This document shows, piece by piece, positions 5,076 to 42,555 of a DNA stretch of 52,120 nucleotides; within the stretch, counting starts at the first letter, position 1; every line of letters begins with the position of its first letter. Made by a program: the position numbers and the translations under genes. Location: NCBI GenBank assembly GCA_022771805.1, contig JALELM010000014.1:24001-76120 (forward strand), written 5' to 3'. This stretch comes from Veillonellaceae bacterium (GTDB lineage: Bacteria > Bacillota > Negativicutes > Veillonellales > Negativicoccaceae). Under the pieces are notes generated by a model, which searched no databases, had not been told where the DNA came from, and saw only the letters and a program-made list of their open reading frames with translations.

Positions 5076-6518
5076 ATGAAGAATTGGCAGAAAAAAACGG
5101 TTGCCTGCCTGTTGGGACTGGTGCTGCTTTGCGGCGGCACACAGGCCTTGGCGGCCGGAGTGAAGGGAGCGCCGGCCGAGACGCAGACGACACATACGGA
5201 GACCCGGCAAAAAGTCCGGCCGAATGCGCCGCACAAAGTAACTGCGGAAAAGCATGTCGTCGCGGCACGAGCGCAGGTCAAGGCCGCGCCGGCGGCCGCG
5301 AAGGCGGTCAAAGGCGCAGTGAAAGCGGCGGGCAGCGAAAACGCGGCGCAAGATTCCTCCCGCAAAGCAAGTACGATAAAAGAAAATGCGGCGCGAACGG
5401 AGCCGGTGACACTTCGGCCGACGGGAAACCAGCCGCTGATTGCGGTCGGTCTGGCGCGTGGCGTGAACCGAGCCGTCGTCACGGGGAACGGGCCGTTCAG
5501 CGTGTACAGCGGCACGACGAAGTGGAAATCCTACAAGGCGGGAGAACGCCTGACGCTGACGGTGCGCGGGCGGGCGATCTATCTCGACGGCAAGGCGGTC
5601 GGTGAGACGGTCATTATTCAGCCAGAGGGATTGACGCTGCTCTCGTATGACGATTCGCCGTACCGCGGTTCATTGCGGCTGCTGACGGCCACGGGCAACG
5701 GCATGGTCGTGGTCAACGATGTGCCGGTGGAAAGCTATCTCTACGGGGTCGTGCCGCGTGAAATGCCGGCGAGCTGGGAAATGAATGCCCTGCGGGCACA
5801 GGCGGTAGCGGCGCGGACGTATGCGCTGGCGCATCGGGGCGATTATCGTGCCCAGGGTTTTGATGTGCTGCCGACCGTGCTTTCGCAAGTATACGGCGGT
5901 GTCGCCGCGGAGGATCCGCGCTCGACACAGGCGGTCAACGACACGGCGGGCGAGGTGCTGACCTACAACGGCCGTCTGATCGATGCGGTATTCTGTGCAC
6001 ACAGCGGCGGCTATACGGAAGACAGCGAGAATGTCTGGACAAACCGGGTGCCGTATTTGCGCAGCGTGGTCGAGCCGACGAATGACTTTACCGCGAAGCA
6101 GTGGAGTGTCCGGCTCAGTCTGCGTGAACTGGAAGCGAAACTGGCGGCGGCCGGCCGGGATGTCGGCAAAATTCGCAAAATTCGCCTCTCCTCGCTCGGC
6201 AAAGCGCCGTATCGGGTAAAGGATCGGACTGCGGCCGGGCGTGTAAAAGAGATCGTCTTTGAGGGAACCAAGAAAACGGTCACCGTGACGGGCAACCGCT
6301 TTCAGGAGTTGTTGGATCTGCGCAGCACACTGTTCGACATCCGGCTCTTGAAGAAGGGCGATCAGGTGGAAGTGTACGGATACGGTTACGGGCATGGCGT
6401 GGGAATGTCGCAATGGGGCGCGCAAATCATGGCGCAAAAAAACTCGCAGGATACATTGGGCTATCGCAAGATTCTGCTTCATTTCTACAGCGGTGTGAAG
6501 CTGGAAACGATGTATTGA
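5076..6518 (+). CDS. SpoIID/LytB-domain protein, exported lytic transglycosylase-like
   Basis: A 480-aa secreted protein. It has a signal peptide (about 1-27, ending ALAAG), a low-complexity Ala/Lys/Arg-rich linker (about 30-120), and a SpoIID domain (about 200-330) with VESYLYGVVPREMPASW, where the Glu of PREM corresponds to the catalytic acid of SpoIID. The motifs AQAVAARTYA and YGHGVGMSQWGA are also family hallmarks. SpoIID cuts denuded glycan strands during engulfment in spore formers, but SpoIID-domain proteins persist in non-sporulating relatives as wall enzymes. It starts 1 nt after the DUF2905 stop and 7 nt before queA. Confidence 0.88.
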   Translation: MKNWQKKTVACLLGLVLLCGGTQALAAGVKGAPAETQTTHTETRQKVRPNAPHKVTAEKHVVAARAQVKAAPAAAKAVKGAVKAAGSENAAQDSSRKASTIKENAARTEPVTLRPTGNQPLIAVGLARGVNRAVVTGNGPFSVYSGTTKWKSYKAGERLTLTVRGRAIYLDGKAVGETVIIQPEGLTLLSYDDSPYRGSLRLLTATGNGMVVVNDVPVESYLYGVVPREMPASWEMNALRAQAVAARTYALAHRGDYRAQGFDVLPTVLSQVYGGVAAEDPRSTQAVNDTAGEVLTYNGRLIDAVFCAHSGGYTEDSENVWTNRVPYLRSVVEPTNDFTAKQWSVRLSLRELEAKLAAAGRDVGKIRKIRLSSLGKAPYRVKDRTAAGRVKEIVFEGTKKTVTVTGNRFQELLDLRSTLFDIRLLKKGDQVEVYGYGYGHGVGMSQWGAQIMAQKNSQDTLGYRKILLHFYSGVKLETMY

Positions 6519-6525
6519 GGAGATT

Positions 6526-8688
<2,163 letters not shown>

Positions 8689-32919: not shown

Positions 32920-33612
32920 ATGAACGATTTGATAGCGGAGCTTGCGGCGTATCGGGCGCCGCTCGTCTGCAATCCCTGGTGTGAAGCGGACGAAGATCCC
33001 GCACTGGAGTGTGCCGGCGCGGCGGCGTTGCGGCGGCGACACTTGCAGGCATATCTTGCCGCTCGGCCGCAACCGAAACTGCTCGTCATTGCCGAGGCGG
33101 CAGGCTACCAAGGCTGTCGCTTCACCGGGATTCCGATCACTTGTGAGCGGATGCTGCTGAACCGGCATCGGGAGATCGGTTCGGGCGATGTCCTGCCGGG
33201 GAAACCGGCTCGGGGCGGGCGCACCTCGCGCGTGACGGAGGCGATGCCGGCAGCGCGCCGGGAAGGCGGCTACAATGAACCGACGGATACGGTCGTATGG
33301 GGCGCCATACGCGAATCCGGCTTGGCGATGGCGGACGTGCTGTTGTGGAATATCTTTCCGTTTCATCCGTATCGGGCGGGAAACCCGCTCAGCAATCGCA
33401 CACCGACGCCGGGCGAATTGGCGGCCGGTCTGGTCTTTGCCAAGCGCTTACTGCGGCGGTATCGTCCGGCGCTGATTCTGGCCGTGGGGCGTAAAAGTGC
33501 ACAGACGCTGCAGGAAGCGGGCATTGACGCAATCGGTTTGCGCCATCCGGCGAACGGCGGTGTCGGTGCGTTTCGGCGCGGTTTTGCCGAAGCAGTCAAT
33601 AATTTGTATTAA
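32920..33612 (+). CDS. Uracil-DNA glycosylase-like protein
   Basis: A 230-aa protein that looks like a member of the uracil-DNA glycosylase superfamily. Motif I is probably LLVIAEAAGYQGCRFTGIPI (about 54-73), the core strand is ADVLLWNIFPFHP (Asn and His near 140), and the second catalytic loop is LRHPANGG (about 208-215). The usual catalytic Asp or Glu of motif I is not obvious: the family GEAPG reads AEAAG here. It has no iron-sulfur Cys cluster of family 4. Activity is uncertain. ATG 32920 follows TAGGGACGG and lies 6 nt after the glycosyltransferase. Confidence 0.72.
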   Translation: MNDLIAELAAYRAPLVCNPWCEADEDPALECAGAAALRRRHLQAYLAARPQPKLLVIAEAAGYQGCRFTGIPITCERMLLNRHREIGSGDVLPGKPARGGRTSRVTEAMPAARREGGYNEPTDTVVWGAIRESGLAMADVLLWNIFPFHPYRAGNPLSNRTPTPGELAAGLVFAKRLLRRYRPALILAVGRKSAQTLQEAGIDAIGLRHPANGGVGAFRRGFAEAVNNLY

Positions 33613-33652
33613 AAAATAACGACGATATTTCCGGATATCGCCGTTATTTTTT
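33611..33652. terminator. Bidirectional terminator between the UDG-like gene and larE
   Basis: AAAAAATAACG (33611-33621) pairs with CGTTATTTTTT (33642-33652), then one mismatch, then CGATAT / ATATCG around TTCCGG. It overlaps the stop codons of both convergent genes. Confidence 0.9.
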
Positions 33653-34414
33653 GTCAAAACGTCCGCTGCAAAAGCGGTCGAAATGAACGGCCGTAAAGCC
33701 GAGAGTTTGCAGTTGTTTGCTGATTGCCGCCTGCATATCCGGGGACGGCGGGAGCGGCGTTTCCACGCTTGCCGTCGAAGCCAGGACACGGACGCGTAAC
33801 GGCGAGCCGAGGAGCGGCAGGAGCAGGGCTTCCGCGGCGGCTGCTCGTGCCAGTGCCGCCGGCGTAAGTTGCGTGTGGTAAGGAAAGCGGGTAGCCAGGC
33901 AGGGGGCGGCGGGTTTCGTCGCCAATTCCGGTACATAGCGGGCGGCAAGTTCACGCACGGTCGCCTTGTCGATCCCGAGTTCGAGGTACGGCGAGGAAAT
34001 GCCGAGCTCTTGCAGAGCGCGCAGTCCCGGGCGGTATCCTTGTAAGTCGTCGGTATTGCTTCCGTCCCAAACGGCGGTGTAGCCTTGCTCTTTCGCATAG
34101 GTAAGCAAAGCGGCAAAGCGGGCATACTTGCAGTGGTAGCAGCGATCGGGCGCATTGTTGCGAACGGCGGGTACGGCCAGGTCGTCGCAGTCTTTCACCA
34201 GATGCGGGAAGCCGTACGTTTGCGCCAGTTGCTGCGCGGCGGCCAGTTCGGCGGCGGGATACAGCGGTCCGCTGCAAGTCACGGTCAGCATCGCCGGGGC
34301 ATAGCGGGAGGCGAAGTAAGCGAGAACGCCGGAATCCACTCCGCCGGAATAGGCGACGAGAACGCGTCCGGCTCGGCGGGCATATGCTCGCAACGCCGCT
34401 TCAGCGCGCGGCAT
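33644..34414 (-). CDS. larE: LarE-type ATP-dependent sacrificial sulfur transferase (PP-loop)
   Basis: A 256-aa PP-loop ATPase. The ATP motif is SGGVDS at 23-28. CYHCK (Cys92, Cys95) and KPAAPCLATRFPY (Cys172) match the LarE family; Cys172 corresponds to the Cys that Lactobacillus plantarum LarE gives up when it adds sulfur to the nickel-pincer cofactor of lactate racemase. No larA, larB or larC is in the window. The gene overlaps the end of the RuBisCO-like gene by 14 nt, so the two are probably translated together. ATG 34414 is chosen for the family N-terminus; longer readings lie inside the upstream gene. Confidence 0.87.
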   Translation of the reverse strand: MPRAEAALRAYARRAGRVLVAYSGGVDSGVLAYFASRYAPAMLTVTCSGPLYPAAELAAAQQLAQTYGFPHLVKDCDDLAVPAVRNNAPDRCYHCKYARFAALLTYAKEQGYTAVWDGSNTDDLQGYRPGLRALQELGISSPYLELGIDKATVRELAARYVPELATKPAAPCLATRFPYHTQLTPAALARAAAAEALLLPLLGSPLRVRVLASTASVETPLPPSPDMQAAISKQLQTLGFTAVHFDRFCSGRFDKK

Positions 34415-35543
34415 AGATTTCGTCCAGCAGCGCCAGCAGGGCTTGTGCATTCGCCGTCAGATCGTTGCTGCGGCGGAAGAGATCGCCGCCGACCAGGTAC
34501 AGTACGTCCTCGCCGAACAGGCGCGCCATGGCCGGGATCGCGTCCCGATTCATGCCGCCGCCGACACTCGGCAAGACGGGAGCCAAGCCGCCCCAGGGTT
34601 TACGCGCGGCGTTACGCGCGGCGATACAATTTTTCTGCCCCAACGAGAACCGGCCGCCGCAACCGACGATGATCACACCGTCCGCGCCCGCCAAACGCGG
34701 CAGGTAGCCGTTGAAAATACGCGTATGCAGACCCGTCTCCCGCGTCCGAATGAACGGACCGCTGAAAGAGGGGTGCAACAGGATCGGCAGGGTGAATTTC
34801 GGGTCGCGGGACAGTTCGCGGATGATGCCCCAGCCGACGAGGGCGGGGGACAGCATGATGCCGCCGGCGCCGTACTCCTGAGCACGAAATGTGCGCTCGA
34901 TCACTTCCGTTCCTTCGGCGCAGACATTGGCAAAATAAGCGGTATGCCCGCCGGTTTCGGCATTGGCTTCGGCGACGGCGTCCACACAATATCGGACTCG
35001 CTCGTCAAACGGAGACCAGGACTGATTGTACAAGCTGTGATCGTCCTTGATCGTATGGATACCGCCTTTGGCAAAGGCGGCAGCCATGGCGGCAAATTCG
35101 CGGGATGTATGGCCGATCGGTTTCAGGACGGCCATCGTCAACGGCCCCTTCGGCCGCTGCCAACGTTCACGCAGACCCGCCAGACCGTACTTCGGTCCCG
35201 GATACTCGGCAAAGAGCTCCGGCGGCAATTTCAAATCCAAAGCCCGGATTCCCGGCTGCAGAGAAGAGTTGCCGTAGAGCATATTTAAGAACTGAATGAA
35301 GTCGCCCTGCACCGCTTCGGTCGGATAGGAAATGCAGGCGCGCCAGGTCGTTTCCGTGAAGGGCTCCAGCGCCTCGATCCTCCCGGTCATTTCGTCGGCA
35401 AACCAGGTGCCGGTCACCAGGTCATACGGGAATTCGATCGTCTGTTCGACCGCAATGCCGCGGGCGATTCGCTTCGCTTCTTCATAGTCGGCGGCGGGCA
35501 GTTCATATATCGCCTGCCAGCGCGGTAATTGTAAATGTGACAT
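34401..35543 (-). CDS. RuBisCO-like protein (form IV type)
   Basis: A 380-aa protein with the RuBisCO large-subunit layout: N-terminal alpha/beta domain (about 1-125) and TIM barrel. Key sites: LKPIG (Lys141 aligns with RuBisCO Lys175, but Ile143 replaces Lys177), IKDDH at 165-169 (carbamylated Lys and Asp kept, metal-binding Glu204 replaced by His169), LLHPSF (His257 for His294), GLHTRIF, and VGCGGRF where loop-6 Lys334 is replaced. It cannot be a carboxylase and belongs with form IV proteins, which act as enolases or isomerases (methionine salvage) or in sugar-acid breakdown. Its own reaction is unknown. ATG 35543 follows AAAGGAGGTTCT. Confidence 0.88.
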   Translation of the reverse strand: MSHLQLPRWQAIYELPAADYEEAKRIARGIAVEQTIEFPYDLVTGTWFADEMTGRIEALEPFTETTWRACISYPTEAVQGDFIQFLNMLYGNSSLQPGIRALDLKLPPELFAEYPGPKYGLAGLRERWQRPKGPLTMAVLKPIGHTSREFAAMAAAFAKGGIHTIKDDHSLYNQSWSPFDERVRYCVDAVAEANAETGGHTAYFANVCAEGTEVIERTFRAQEYGAGGIMLSPALVGWGIIRELSRDPKFTLPILLHPSFSGPFIRTRETGLHTRIFNGYLPRLAGADGVIIVGCGGRFSLGQKNCIAARNAARKPWGGLAPVLPSVGGGMNRDAIPAMARLFGEDVLYLVGGDLFRRSNDLTANAQALLALLDEIYAAR

Positions 35544-35612
35544 AGAACCTCCTTTGTTACGTTTCTATTCTATCACGAGTGGAAACGAAGCGGCGAATGA
35601 ACCGGTCTGTGA

Positions 35613-35618
35613 TATAAT
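35613..35618 (+). promoter_or_regulatory. -10 box for tpx
   Basis: TATAAT with TGA directly upstream (extended -10), 23 bp before the tpx start. No clear -35. Confidence 0.6.
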
Positions 35619-35640
35619 GTGAACAAAAGGAGGAATTGCC

Positions 35641-36147
35641 ATGAAACGACAAACTAAGTTTGGAAACAATATGCTGGATTTGGCAGGTTCGGCCGTAGAA
35701 GTCGGCGCCGCCGCACCGGATGCTTCGCTGGTGAACGGGAAGTTGGAAGAAGTGCATTTGAGCGATTGGAACGGGAAGATCAAAGTGATTGCCGTCGTGC
35801 CTTCCATGAATACGGGAGTTTGCCAGGCACAGGTGCGTGAATTTAATAAACAAGCGGTGGATTTCCATGATGATGTGGTTGTGTTGGCGATCAGCATGGA
35901 TCTGCCTTTCGCGCAGCAGGAATTTTGTGCGGCAAACGGGCTGGAGCGCGTCATTACATTGTCCGACCATCGGTCGGCGGAATTCGGTACGAAGTACGGC
36001 TTCCTCATGGAAGCGGTGCGGCTGCTTTCCCGCGGGGTGGTCATCATCGATCGCGATAATATCGTCCGGTATGCGGAATATGTTCCCGAGGTCAAAGACC
36101 AGGTCGATTTCGACCGGGCATTGGCAGCTTTGCGGGAAATTGAATAA
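35641..36147 (+). CDS. tpx: Thiol peroxidase (Tpx, atypical 2-Cys peroxiredoxin)
   Basis: A 168-aa peroxiredoxin. Peroxidatic Cys61 lies in VVPSMNTGVCQAQ (T-x-x-C motif) and resolving Cys96 in QQEFCAANGLE, the spacing of Tpx. The family segment VLAISMDLPFAQ is present. It reduces peroxides with thioredoxin. The usual SIDTPVC reads SMNTGVC here, a mild departure. ATG 35641 follows AAAGGAGGAATTGCC. It is divergent from the RuBisCO-like gene. Confidence 0.95.
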   Translation: MKRQTKFGNNMLDLAGSAVEVGAAAPDASLVNGKLEEVHLSDWNGKIKVIAVVPSMNTGVCQAQVREFNKQAVDFHDDVVVLAISMDLPFAQQEFCAANGLERVITLSDHRSAEFGTKYGFLMEAVRLLSRGVVIIDRDNIVRYAEYVPEVKDQVDFDRALAALREIE

Positions 36148-36520: not shown

Positions 36521-37348
36521 TTACCAAGCGGGCAAAATGGAGCCGTTGAAATTTTCCAAAACGAATTGGCGTACCGCATCGCTGTGGAACGCCCGCAGCA
36601 GCTGCTGCCATTCCGGGCGATCCTTTTCGTCGCCGCGAACCGCGATGATATTCGTGTACGGCGAGTCGGTGGATTCCACCGCGAGCGCATCGCGGCTCGG
36701 ATTCAGACCGACTTCCAGCGCGTAGTTCGTATTGATGACGGCGAGATCCGTATCATGCAGCGAACGCGGGATTTGTGCCGCATCGAGTTCGAGGAAGTGC
36801 AGGTCTTTCGGGTTTTCGACGATATCGGCAAGGGAAGAGGTGACGGTGCCGCCGTCACGCAGCTTCAGCAAGCCCTTTTCCTGCAATAACAGGAGCGCCC
36901 GCCCGCCGTTGCTGGGATCGTTCGGAATGGCGACCTGCGCGCCGTTCGGGAGAGAGTCCGTGTCCCGGTAGCGATCCGAGTACATGGCGATCGGCAGAAG
37001 GATCGTCTGGCCGATATCGACCAGCGGTTCTTTTTGATCCTTGTTGAAGTTGGCCAGGTACGGTGCGTGTTGGAAGCTGTTGGCATCGAGGTCGCCCTGT
37101 TGGAGCGCGACATTCGGTGTGACAAAGTCCGTAAACTCGACTACCTGAATATACAAACCGTCTTTTTCCGCCACTTCTTTTACTTTGTCGATCACGGCGG
37201 CATGCGGCCCTGCCGTCACGCCGATTTTTAAGGGACGAGCCTGAGTACCGATGGCGGTGTTCTCCTGTTTATCGGAGCTGCCGCAGCCGGCAAGCAGAAC
37301 AAGGCAGAGAGCCAAAACACCGAGGTTGAAAAGATTACGAATACGCAT
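36521..37348 (-). CDS. metQ: Methionine ABC transporter substrate-binding lipoprotein MetQ
   Basis: A 275-aa lipoprotein with a signal peptide ending in the lipobox LLAGC (about residue 22). The NlpA/MetQ fold shows LKIGVTAGPHAAVIDKV, FTDFVTPNVALQQGDLDANSFQH and the ligand segment NYALEVGLNP. It captures methionine for MetNI. ATG 37348 is chosen over an upstream GTG because TAGGTG then lies at the right distance. It is the last gene of metN-metI-metQ, controlled by a SAM-I riboswitch. Confidence 0.96.
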   Translation of the reverse strand: MRIRNLFNLGVLALCLVLLAGCGSSDKQENTAIGTQARPLKIGVTAGPHAAVIDKVKEVAEKDGLYIQVVEFTDFVTPNVALQQGDLDANSFQHAPYLANFNKDQKEPLVDIGQTILLPIAMYSDRYRDTDSLPNGAQVAIPNDPSNGGRALLLLQEKGLLKLRDGGTVTSSLADIVENPKDLHFLELDAAQIPRSLHDTDLAVINTNYALEVGLNPSRDALAVESTDSPYTNIIAVRGDEKDRPEWQQLLRAFHSDAVRQFVLENFNGSILPAW

Positions 37349-37357
37349 AGTAAGCAC

Positions 37358-38011
37358 CTACCTTTTATTAACACGCCGGGAGAGGAAATTTCCCGCGCTT
37401 TGGATACATTGGACAACGACGATGAGGACGGCAATGGTCATCAGCATGACGTCGAGGCGGAAACGCTGGTAACCGTAGCGGATCGCCAGGTCGCCGAGCC
37501 CGCCGCCGCCGATGGCGCCGGCCATGGCGGAATAGCTGATGAGGTTCACGATGACATTGGTGATGCTGTCGATAATGGCAGGCATCGCTTCCGGCAACAG
37601 CACCTTGCGGATGATCTCGAGCGGCGAAGCGCCCATGGCCTGCGCCGCCTCAATGAGACCGGCCGGTACTTCCTTCAGCGCCGTTTCCACAAGGCGGGCG
37701 GTAAAGGGAGCCGCGGCAATGGTTAGCGGCACACAGGCCGCCGTAGTACCGATGGACGTTCCCGCGATAATTCGGGTAAGCGGGATAATCGCCACCATCA
37801 GGATGATAAAGGGGATCGAACGCAACATATTGACGACGATGCCGAGCGGCTTATTGATGACGGCATTTTCCAGGATATGCCCTTTGTCGGTGACCAGGAG
37901 AAGCACGCCGAGGGGAATGCCGAACAGTGCCGCCAACGTCGAAGAGACGACGACCATGTACAGCGTTTCGAGCAGGCTTTGCCACAACAAATTAATGAGC
38001 TCGGGGGACAT
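37358..38011 (-). CDS. metI: Methionine ABC transporter permease MetI
   Basis: A 217-aa permease with five predicted helices. The EAA loop is EAAQAMGASPLEIIRKVLLPEAMP (about residues 132-155 in outline), which contacts the ATPase. The MLRSIPFIILMVAIIP segment is typical of MetI. It overlaps metN by 20 nt and ends 9 nt before metQ. Confidence 0.96.
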   Translation of the reverse strand: MSPELINLLWQSLLETLYMVVVSSTLAALFGIPLGVLLLVTDKGHILENAVINKPLGIVVNMLRSIPFIILMVAIIPLTRIIAGTSIGTTAACVPLTIAAAPFTARLVETALKEVPAGLIEAAQAMGASPLEIIRKVLLPEAMPAIIDSITNVIVNLISYSAMAGAIGGGGLGDLAIRYGYQRFRLDVMLMTIAVLIVVVQCIQSAGNFLSRRVNKR

Positions 38012-39035
38012 AGCCGATCACCTCACTTTCAATAGGGCAGGATTCCAGCCAGCGCAGCGCATCCTGCAAGCCGCCGTCACGACCGTTCAGAAGAACGATC
38101 AGCCGGCCGAACGAAGTATTTTGAATGTCGTCGACATTGGCATAGAGAATGCTGACTTCAATGTCGAACTTGCGGATCAATGTGGAGAGCAAGGGCTCGT
38201 CCGTAACATCGCCGATGAACGAAAGGCGCAGCAGGATATCCGAGGGTCCCTGCGGTGCGGGCTGTACGTTCAGGTGACTCAGCGCTTCCGGCAGGTCGCT
38301 GGCGAGAACGGAACCGACAAATTCACGGGTTGTCGCCGTTTGGGGTTTCGTAAAGACATCCACCGTGCTGCCCTGCTCGATCAGCCGTCCGTCTTCAATG
38401 ACGGCGACACAATCACAAATTTCTTTGATGACTTCCATCTCGTGGGTGATCAGCACGATCGTGAGCCCCAGGCGACGGTTGATATCGCGCAGCAACTCGA
38501 GAATGGACTTAGTCGTTTGCGGGTCGAGCGCGGAAGTGGCTTCGTCGCAGAGAAGCACTTTCGGTTCGGCCACCAATGCCCGGGCGATCCCGACGCGTTG
38601 CTTTTGGCCGCCGGAGAGTTGCGCGGGATAGTTGTCCCGGCGATCGGTGAGACCGACCAGATCCAGAATCGGTGCAATCCGGCGCTCCCGTTCCGCTTTC
38701 GGAATACCGGCCAATTCCAACGGAAACGCGATGTTCTCATAGACGGTGCGGGACGAGAGCAGGTTGAAATGTTGGAAAATCATACCGATATGCTTGCGCT
38801 CGGCGCGCAATTCGCTTTCGCTCATGACGGTGAAGTCCTTGCCGTCGACCAGCACCTGGCCGGAGGTCGGCCGCTCCAGCATGTTAATGCAACGAATCAG
38901 CGTGGATTTTCCGGCTCCGGACAGACCGATAATTCCGCAGATGCTGCCGGCAGCCACATGTAAATTGATACCGTCGAGTGCAACAACACGGTTCGCGCCG
39001 TCGTAGACCTTGCCGACATTGCGTAAATCAATCAT
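37992..39035 (-). CDS. metN: Methionine ABC transporter ATPase MetN
   Basis: A 347-aa ABC ATPase. Walker A is GLSGAGKST at 37-45, the signature is LSGGQKQR near 140, and Walker B is VLLCDEATSALD. A C-terminal NIL domain (about 260-340) binds methionine and inhibits transport when methionine is plentiful. ATG 39035 follows GAGGAGTGATTCC; a longer in-frame reading would start inside the riboswitch terminator. It heads metN-metI-metQ. Confidence 0.96.
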   Translation of the reverse strand: MIDLRNVGKVYDGANRVVALDGINLHVAAGSICGIIGLSGAGKSTLIRCINMLERPTSGQVLVDGKDFTVMSESELRAERKHIGMIFQHFNLLSSRTVYENIAFPLELAGIPKAERERRIAPILDLVGLTDRRDNYPAQLSGGQKQRVGIARALVAEPKVLLCDEATSALDPQTTKSILELLRDINRRLGLTIVLITHEMEVIKEICDCVAVIEDGRLIEQGSTVDVFTKPQTATTREFVGSVLASDLPEALSHLNVQPAPQGPSDILLRLSFIGDVTDEPLLSTLIRKFDIEVSILYANVDDIQNTSFGRLIVLLNGRDGGLQDALRWLESCPIESEVIGYVPRAH

Positions 39036-39055
39036 GGAATCACTCCTCTTCAATA

Positions 39056-39091
39056 ATATAAAAACCTTCTCCAACAGATGAAGAAGGTTTT
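39056..39091 (-). terminator. Riboswitch-controlled terminator upstream of metN
   Basis: On the minus strand AAAACCTTCT (39091-39082) pairs with AGAAGGTTTT (39070-39061), followed by T-rich sequence. The loop carries TTCATCTG, complementary to CAGATGAA at the 3' side of the aptamer P1 stem, so an antiterminator can replace this hairpin when SAM is scarce. Confidence 0.85.
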
Positions 39092-39094
39092 GAA

Positions 39095-39190
39095 TTCATC
39101 TGTCGGGACATACCCGCCGGAATTGGCACCGTTTCAAGCGAATGGTTGCCGTGACGTCATCGGGCCGGTCCCTCGGTCACTCATGATGAA
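39095..39190 (-). promoter_or_regulatory. SAM-I (S-box) riboswitch aptamer controlling metNIQ
   Basis: Read on the minus strand, P1 is TTCATC (39190-39185) pairing with GATGAA (39100-39095). Between them are the conserved S-box parts: GAGGGACCGGCCCGATGA, then GGCAACC, then a hairpin and GGTGCCAATTCC. The arrangement matches the SAM-I consensus. With the terminator downstream, SAM binding should switch the methionine transporter off. Confidence 0.95.
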
Positions 39191-39212
39191 TGGCTGTATG
39201 TAGTTGCAATGT

Positions 39213-42248: not shown

Positions 42249-42280
42249 GTACGAAATCGAAAACGGCAATGAAGGAAAAA

Positions 42281-42555
42281 AGTAGTGGCGTACGAAATCG
42301 ATAGAGAGCCGGCGACCGGTGGAAAGTCGGCGAGGACGGCGCGATGAAGTTCTTTCCGGAGCCGCTTTGCTGAAAAAGGAGTAGGCAAAGCCGGGGTGAC
42401 TCCCGTTACGAGGTCTCAAGTTGATCTGACTGAAGATAATTAGGGTGGTACCGCGGAATTTTTCCGTCCCTGCGGTGGCACTCTTTTTGTTTTCCGGATA
42501 ATTAGGGTGGTACCGCGATGTCGTCCCGTCGTCCCTGCAGGCAGGGACGATTTTT
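42281..42555 (+). promoter_or_regulatory. T-box riboswitch with one Stem I and two antiterminator/terminator modules
   Basis: Stem I has an AGAGAG bulge (42304-42309), the GGTGGAAAG distal loop region, a specifier-loop stretch GAAGTTCTTTCC, and GGAGC. The T-box element AGGGTGGTACCGCG occurs twice: a 21-nt exact repeat lies at 42435-42455 and 42497-42517. The first module ends in a hairpin with ACCGC / GCGGT and CTTTTTG; the second ends in the strong stem TCGTCCCTGC / GCAGGGACGA (42529-42550) with TTTTT. Uncharged tRNA should stabilise the antiterminator and allow the binding-protein gene to be read. The specifier looks like TTC (Phe); no TGG (Trp) codon is seen in the loop. Confidence 0.9.
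42529..42555 (+). terminator. Second (distal) T-box terminator
   Basis: Ten-base-pair stem, loop AG, then five T. It sits 17 nt before the start codon of the binding-protein gene. Confidence 0.88.

Follow-up and report, generated by a model that had tools for sequence, protein, structure and literature searches.

Why should a gene for a RuBisCO-like protein (RLP) run into a gene for a LarE-type sulfur transferase? The two genes overlap in a stretch of 52,120 nucleotides from a Veillonellaceae bacterium, which was analysed at full length and is called the window below. Gene anatomy, gene sets, phyletic patterns and conserved adjacency can be established at the sequence level, and we favour, with a probability of about 0.72, a reading in which two genes of different pathways sit in one sulfur-metabolism transcription unit, RLP being a DeepYkr isomerase and LarE a cofactor sulfur insertase. 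From them we infer the enzyme activities, the co-transcription and the view that the genes are neighbours because they share sulfur regulation.

The overlapping genes and their surroundings

The features of the locus, numbered within the window, are:

33611-33652, no strand: bidirectional intrinsic terminator with an 18-bp stem, common to larE and the convergent gene 32920-33612
33644-34414, minus strand: larE, 256 aa, ATG to TAA, intact
34401-34414, minus strand: overlap of the RLP stop (TGA) with the larE start (ATG), exactly 14 nt
34401-35543, minus strand: RLP, 380 aa, ATG to TGA, intact
35641-36147, plus strand: divergent peroxiredoxin-like gene, separating RLP from metN-metI-metQ
36521-39074, minus strand: metN-metI-metQ, methionine ABC transporter (Pfam NlpA, BPD_transp_1, ABC_tran + NIL)
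39093-39192, minus strand: SAM riboswitch preceding metNIQ (RF00162 in Rfam, 81.8 bits against a gathering threshold of 44.4)

The initial annotation had described the genes as co-directional, with the RLP stop codon 14 nt inside larE, and the reading-frame coordinates agree with it exactly. The terminator that it placed after larE is real as well, and strong: the structure has a folding energy of -19.8 kcal/mol (z -4.2) and A/T runs on either side, its stem-loop includes the larE stop codon, and it can end transcription from both directions, that of larE and that of the convergent gene. Its single promoter region fared less well, having as sole support the 97-nt divergent gap 5' of RLP (35544-35640); a sigma-70 scan upstream of RLP found no convincing site and nothing beyond chance. 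We consider RLP and larE probably co-transcribed. The methionine transporter genes lie about 1 kb upstream of RLP on the same strand, and an Rfam scan of the window turned up no riboswitch ahead of RLP and larE themselves. Elsewhere in the window, a T-box leader (42260-42474, plus strand) precedes an ABC substrate-binding lipoprotein gene at 42518.

Identity and pathway of the RuBisCO-like protein

RLP belongs to the Pfam family RuBisCO_large (PF00016, E 1e-27), and its best sequence match in the PDB is 3qfw, an RLP of R. palustris. The metal motif reads K166-D167-D168-H169, histidine replacing E204 of RuBisCO; it is unchanged in 18 relatives and is also present in 3qfw. An AlphaFold2 model (pLDDT 92.7) displays a RuBisCO-like fold and superposes on 3qfw with Z 44.4, a comparison by which subtypes are indistinguishable, the values ranging from 42.6 to 45.2 across MtnW, 3qfw and Photo RLPs. 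In a tree of 71 rows, 3qfw falls on the side of the window RLP in the split from MtnW and 1tel (Chlorobium RLP), with SH-aLRT support of 94% and on a long branch. In both the tree and the PDB comparison the DeepYkr type was represented by 3qfw, which is presumably R. palustris RLP1, by elimination, since 2qyg is rlp2.

Other identities were tried and rejected. Scored as MtnW, the protein reaches 185.7 against 409 bits and 131.7 against 513.6 bits, far under the NCBIfam equivalog cut-offs, and scored as the acid-sugar RLP OiaX it reaches 77 against the 700 bits of NF042437. RuBisCO fails on both the profile cut-off and the KDDE metal motif (K201, D203, E204), which is broken by the exchange of Glu for His169.

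The DeepYkr RLPs of R. rubrum and R. palustris convert 5-methylthioribulose-1-phosphate to 1-methylthioxylulose-5-phosphate, from which a cupin yields 1-deoxyxylulose-5-phosphate (DXP), releasing the methylthio group as methanethiol (PMC5893883). MtnP and MtnA act before these two enzymes, the RLP and cupin reactions as described require no LarE, and Dialister and Veillonella are named among the organisms possessing RLP, cupin, MtnP and MtnA (PMC5893883).

The genome of the window carries mtnP and mtnA 80 nt apart (contig C13:172701-174472), MtnP scoring over its NCBIfam cut-off, and a cupin homologue on contig C19. The latter is 47% identical to the RLP-adjacent cupin of locus L062, which served as the query in place of the characterised R. 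rubrum protein. Among 43 genomes, all of which contain mtnA, the cupin was found in 32 of 34 RLP-positive and in none of nine RLP-negative ones (p = 1e-7). On the strength of this phyletic pattern, together with cupin and mtnP-mtnA in the same genome, RLP is read as a probable 5-methylthioribulose-1-phosphate 1,3-isomerase of the DeepYkr type, belonging to the oxygen-independent MTA-isoprenoid shunt. The two RLP-positive genomes from which the cupin is missing speak against our reading.

RLP directly adjoins cupin and O-acetylhomoserine sulfhydrylase (OAHS)-type genes in other families of the class Negativicutes, one of which (f12) has larE-PTS-RLP-cupin-OAHS clusters. Outside the class, relatives in Rhizobiales, Clostridium and others carry RLP as the last gene of an mtnK-mtnA-tktN-tktC-RLP operon with a split transketolase (L186, L229, L234, L247 and others), and in one genome, at L065 (6545-8680), tktN-tktC-RLP lies directly behind a SAM riboswitch and a terminator. 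For a split transketolase acting after methylthioribulose isomerase no role was found in the literature searched, and a search for RLP with transketolase returned nothing relevant. Taken together, the cupin, mtnP-mtnA, OAHS, mtnK-mtnA-tkt and SAM-riboswitch contexts place the RLP family in the metabolism of SAM and methionine by-products. A sulfur-containing substrate for RLP, as suggested at the outset by the initial annotation, is very probable, and most likely it is a methylthio sugar phosphate.

In the proposed route, MtnP and MtnA would process methylthioadenosine, a by-product of SAM, ahead of RLP. RLP would then isomerise 5-methylthioribulose-1-phosphate between the MtnA and cupin methylsulfurylase steps, and the output would be DXP and methanethiol, formed without oxygen.

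Two side observations belong here. At L062, L063, L067, L068 and L139, which resemble methylthio-alkane reductase loci, nitrogenase-like NifD/NifK-type genes lie in the vicinity either of larE or of RLP, cupin and genes of the OAH-sulfhydrylase type. In the reduced genome G187, mtnA (C1:71886-72865) is seemingly broken by stop codons.

LarE, its cofactor partners and its sulfur-gene neighbours

LarE scores 218.5 bits with NCBIfam TIGR00268 (cut-off 150), its PDB matches are L. plantarum LarE and 8cnz, and it contains the motifs SGGVDS, RCYHCK and APCLATRF. SGGXDS together with CXXC-C cysteines marks the [4Fe-4S] type of LarE (PMC9283937), and by its motifs the protein is of this three-cysteine type. 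The initial annotation had noted the absence of larB and larC, which holds for the window and not for the genome: larB overlaps larC2 on contig C9 (larC2/larB at C9:25373-26399; L032, L072), larC1 lies on contig C10 (C10:7159-7875; G000, L031), and larA is present too. The larE of the window is the sole one of its genome. Such a lar gene set elsewhere had been named in advance as something that would weaken a functional link between LarE and RLP, and here it is found with larA, larB and a split larC.

The role that suits LarE best is that of a [4Fe-4S] sulfur insertase in making the nickel-pincer cofactor. Together with LarB and the split LarC, whose genes lie elsewhere, it would build the nickel-pincer nucleotide, by which LarA would be activated. 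The distribution of the genes fits closely: all 61 genomes sampled from the order are concordant for larE and larA, 41 having both and 20 having neither (p = 1.6e-16), so that no sampled genome has larE without larA. On the well-supported branches of the RLP tree, four of four independent larE contrasts agree with larA, a number too small for significance. A feature that tells against our reading is the position of the window LarE on a fast-evolving branch of its tree, which could mean an altered function.

The splitting of larC is widespread. Unlinked larC1 and larC2+larB are seen throughout the sampled genomes of families f1 and f2 and in part of f3, and lar operons have a fused larC. Three genomes (G169, G187, G193) with neither larA nor larE encode a protein weakly LarC-like at its N-terminus (26-30 bits), possibly a diverged paralogue, and their match to the larB model is below its cut-off.

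Is cofactor synthesis the whole task of LarE in these bacteria? We surveyed 59 larE loci of the class, picked for diversity and partly by hand, counting as neighbours O-acetylhomoserine sulfhydrylase-type genes, cysK, NMT1-type ABC transporter and nitrogenase-like genes. Of 34 larE copies that are neither in lar operons nor RLP-linked, 16 have such sulfur-amino-acid or sulfur-transport genes no more than 3 kb away, compared with 0 of 13 lar-operon copies; the p value of 0.002 serves as a guide only, the rows being related and not 34 independent events. In the larE tree, most sulfur-linked and RLP-linked copies fall outside the main clade of lar-operon copies, though some do not. At two loci (L065, L125) an OAHS-larE-cysK cluster follows a SAM riboswitch. 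The second larE of Megasphaera paucivorans (L140, about 6633-7437) has a T-box (6366-6575) with its own terminator directly upstream, the specifier of which, taken from the alignment, is UGC (Cys); a literature search for LarE with T-box returned nothing relevant.

These neighbourhoods are explained most simply if LarE, which consumes sulfur, is controlled along with sulfur metabolism. They also raise an alternative in which the larE lineage linked to RLP does other work in sulfur-amino-acid metabolism, possibly in addition to making the cofactor, such as transferring sulfide or trapping it as thiocarboxylate in an ATP-dependent reaction, and is for this reason co-expressed with methylthio salvage. 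Beside the survey counts, the riboswitch-led clusters and the cysteine T-box, it draws on several genomes in which a lar-operon larE is accompanied by another copy beside RLP or other sulfur genes, an arrangement that cofactor synthesis alone leaves unaccounted for and that tells against our reading. So does the position of larE in two genomes 85-92 bp downstream of the cupin gene, a second link to the RLP pathway. Opposed to a second role are the lack of any sampled genome of the order having larE without larA, the scarcity in the class sample of genomes with larE and no larC, all of them incomplete but one, and the related, partly hand-picked rows of the survey. On balance we hold this alternative to be unlikely. 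A broader version, a Negativicutes larE lineage placed in a cysteine/methionine regulon and performing sulfur chemistry beyond the nickel-pincer cofactor, such as capturing sulfide with the help of ATP when sulfur is salvaged anaerobically, is suggested by the Cys T-box, the SAM-riboswitch-led OAHS/cysK clusters and the linkage to RLP and cupin; we regard it as a speculative and rather improbable idea.

History of the pairing and comparison with known systems

The initial annotation had asked whether the adjacency reaches beyond one strain. It does: RLP and larE are adjacent in 15 of the 61 genomes, in three families, with a looser version in another family. Where the window has its 14-nt overlap, some relatives show spacings of -1, -4, +11 and +15 nt, and the genes of the Veillonella ratti group are 53-151 nt apart. 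The arrangement looks ancestral in the order and has been broken many times. RLP remains at its locus after loss of both larE and larA in G112, in genomes of genus f3-g7 and in many Veillonella, and Veillonella that possess larA but no larE at the RLP locus have a larE-larB-larC-larA operon elsewhere. Conversely, the site that holds RLP-larE in G190 still holds larE in genus g4, which lacks RLP. As larE with larA and RLP are lost in separate patterns, the presence of each gene follows that of its own pathway. Real and ancient though the pairing is, its genes are inherited with different partners.

Could the two simply be chance neighbours, inherited within one order and sharing no regulation? 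An ancestral arrangement that was repeatedly disrupted, and the loose spacing in the Veillonella ratti group, would be expected on that view. We nevertheless judge it improbable, for in other families, too, larE is tied to sulfur genes, including the clusters of family f12.

There remains the proposal of the initial annotation that LarE is a dedicated partner of RLP, delivering sulfur to its substrate or cofactor. Adjacency kept in three families, with overlap or tight spacing in several cases, and the two other genomes in which larE adjoins the cupin are in its favour, yet it is very improbable and finds no support in the data: of the 46 genomes in the order that carry RLP, 18 have no larE, larE-free Veillonella carrying RLP and cupin point away from a need for LarE, and the described RLP and cupin reactions set sulfur free as methanethiol with no LarE needed (PMC5893883). 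In the 61 genomes both genes occur together in 28, RLP alone in 18, larE alone in 13 and neither in 2, which gives no positive association (p = 0.11, in the negative direction).

The odd gene pair is thus most likely an RLP of anaerobic methylthioadenosine recycling next to a sulfur insertase of the nickel cofactor. On our reading, the gene set of oxygen-independent methionine salvage extends through most of an order of anaerobes, and methanethiol is a predicted product. Stand-alone larE genes of the class, often found amid sulfur-amino-acid genes and some of them behind the riboswitches or T-boxes of these, offer a lead on the sulfur source of LarE or on a second role. The RLP pathway and the cofactor enzyme are each already known; for their conserved neighbourhood we found no description, a literature search for RLP with LarE having returned nothing relevant.

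Among known systems, the MTA-isoprenoid shunt of R. rubrum and R. palustris with its DeepYkr RLP is similar in fold, in the KDDH motif (3qfw, about 31% identical to the window RLP in structural alignment) and in having mtnP, mtnA and cupin in the genome; it differs in that the window RLP (contig C1) lies apart from the cupin (C19) and is followed by larE. MtnW, the 2,3-diketo-5-methylthiopentyl-1-phosphate enolase of the YkrW clade, shares the fold and the sulfur-salvage context, whereas the window RLP is far below its cut-offs, has KDDH in place of KDDE and is separate in the tree. The [4Fe-4S]-dependent LarE of Thermotoga maritima (PMC9283937) has the same PP-loop SGGXDS and CXXC-C cysteines, and larB, larC and larA accompany larE in the genome of the window, but here larE stands beside RLP outside a lar operon and larC is divided into two unlinked genes.
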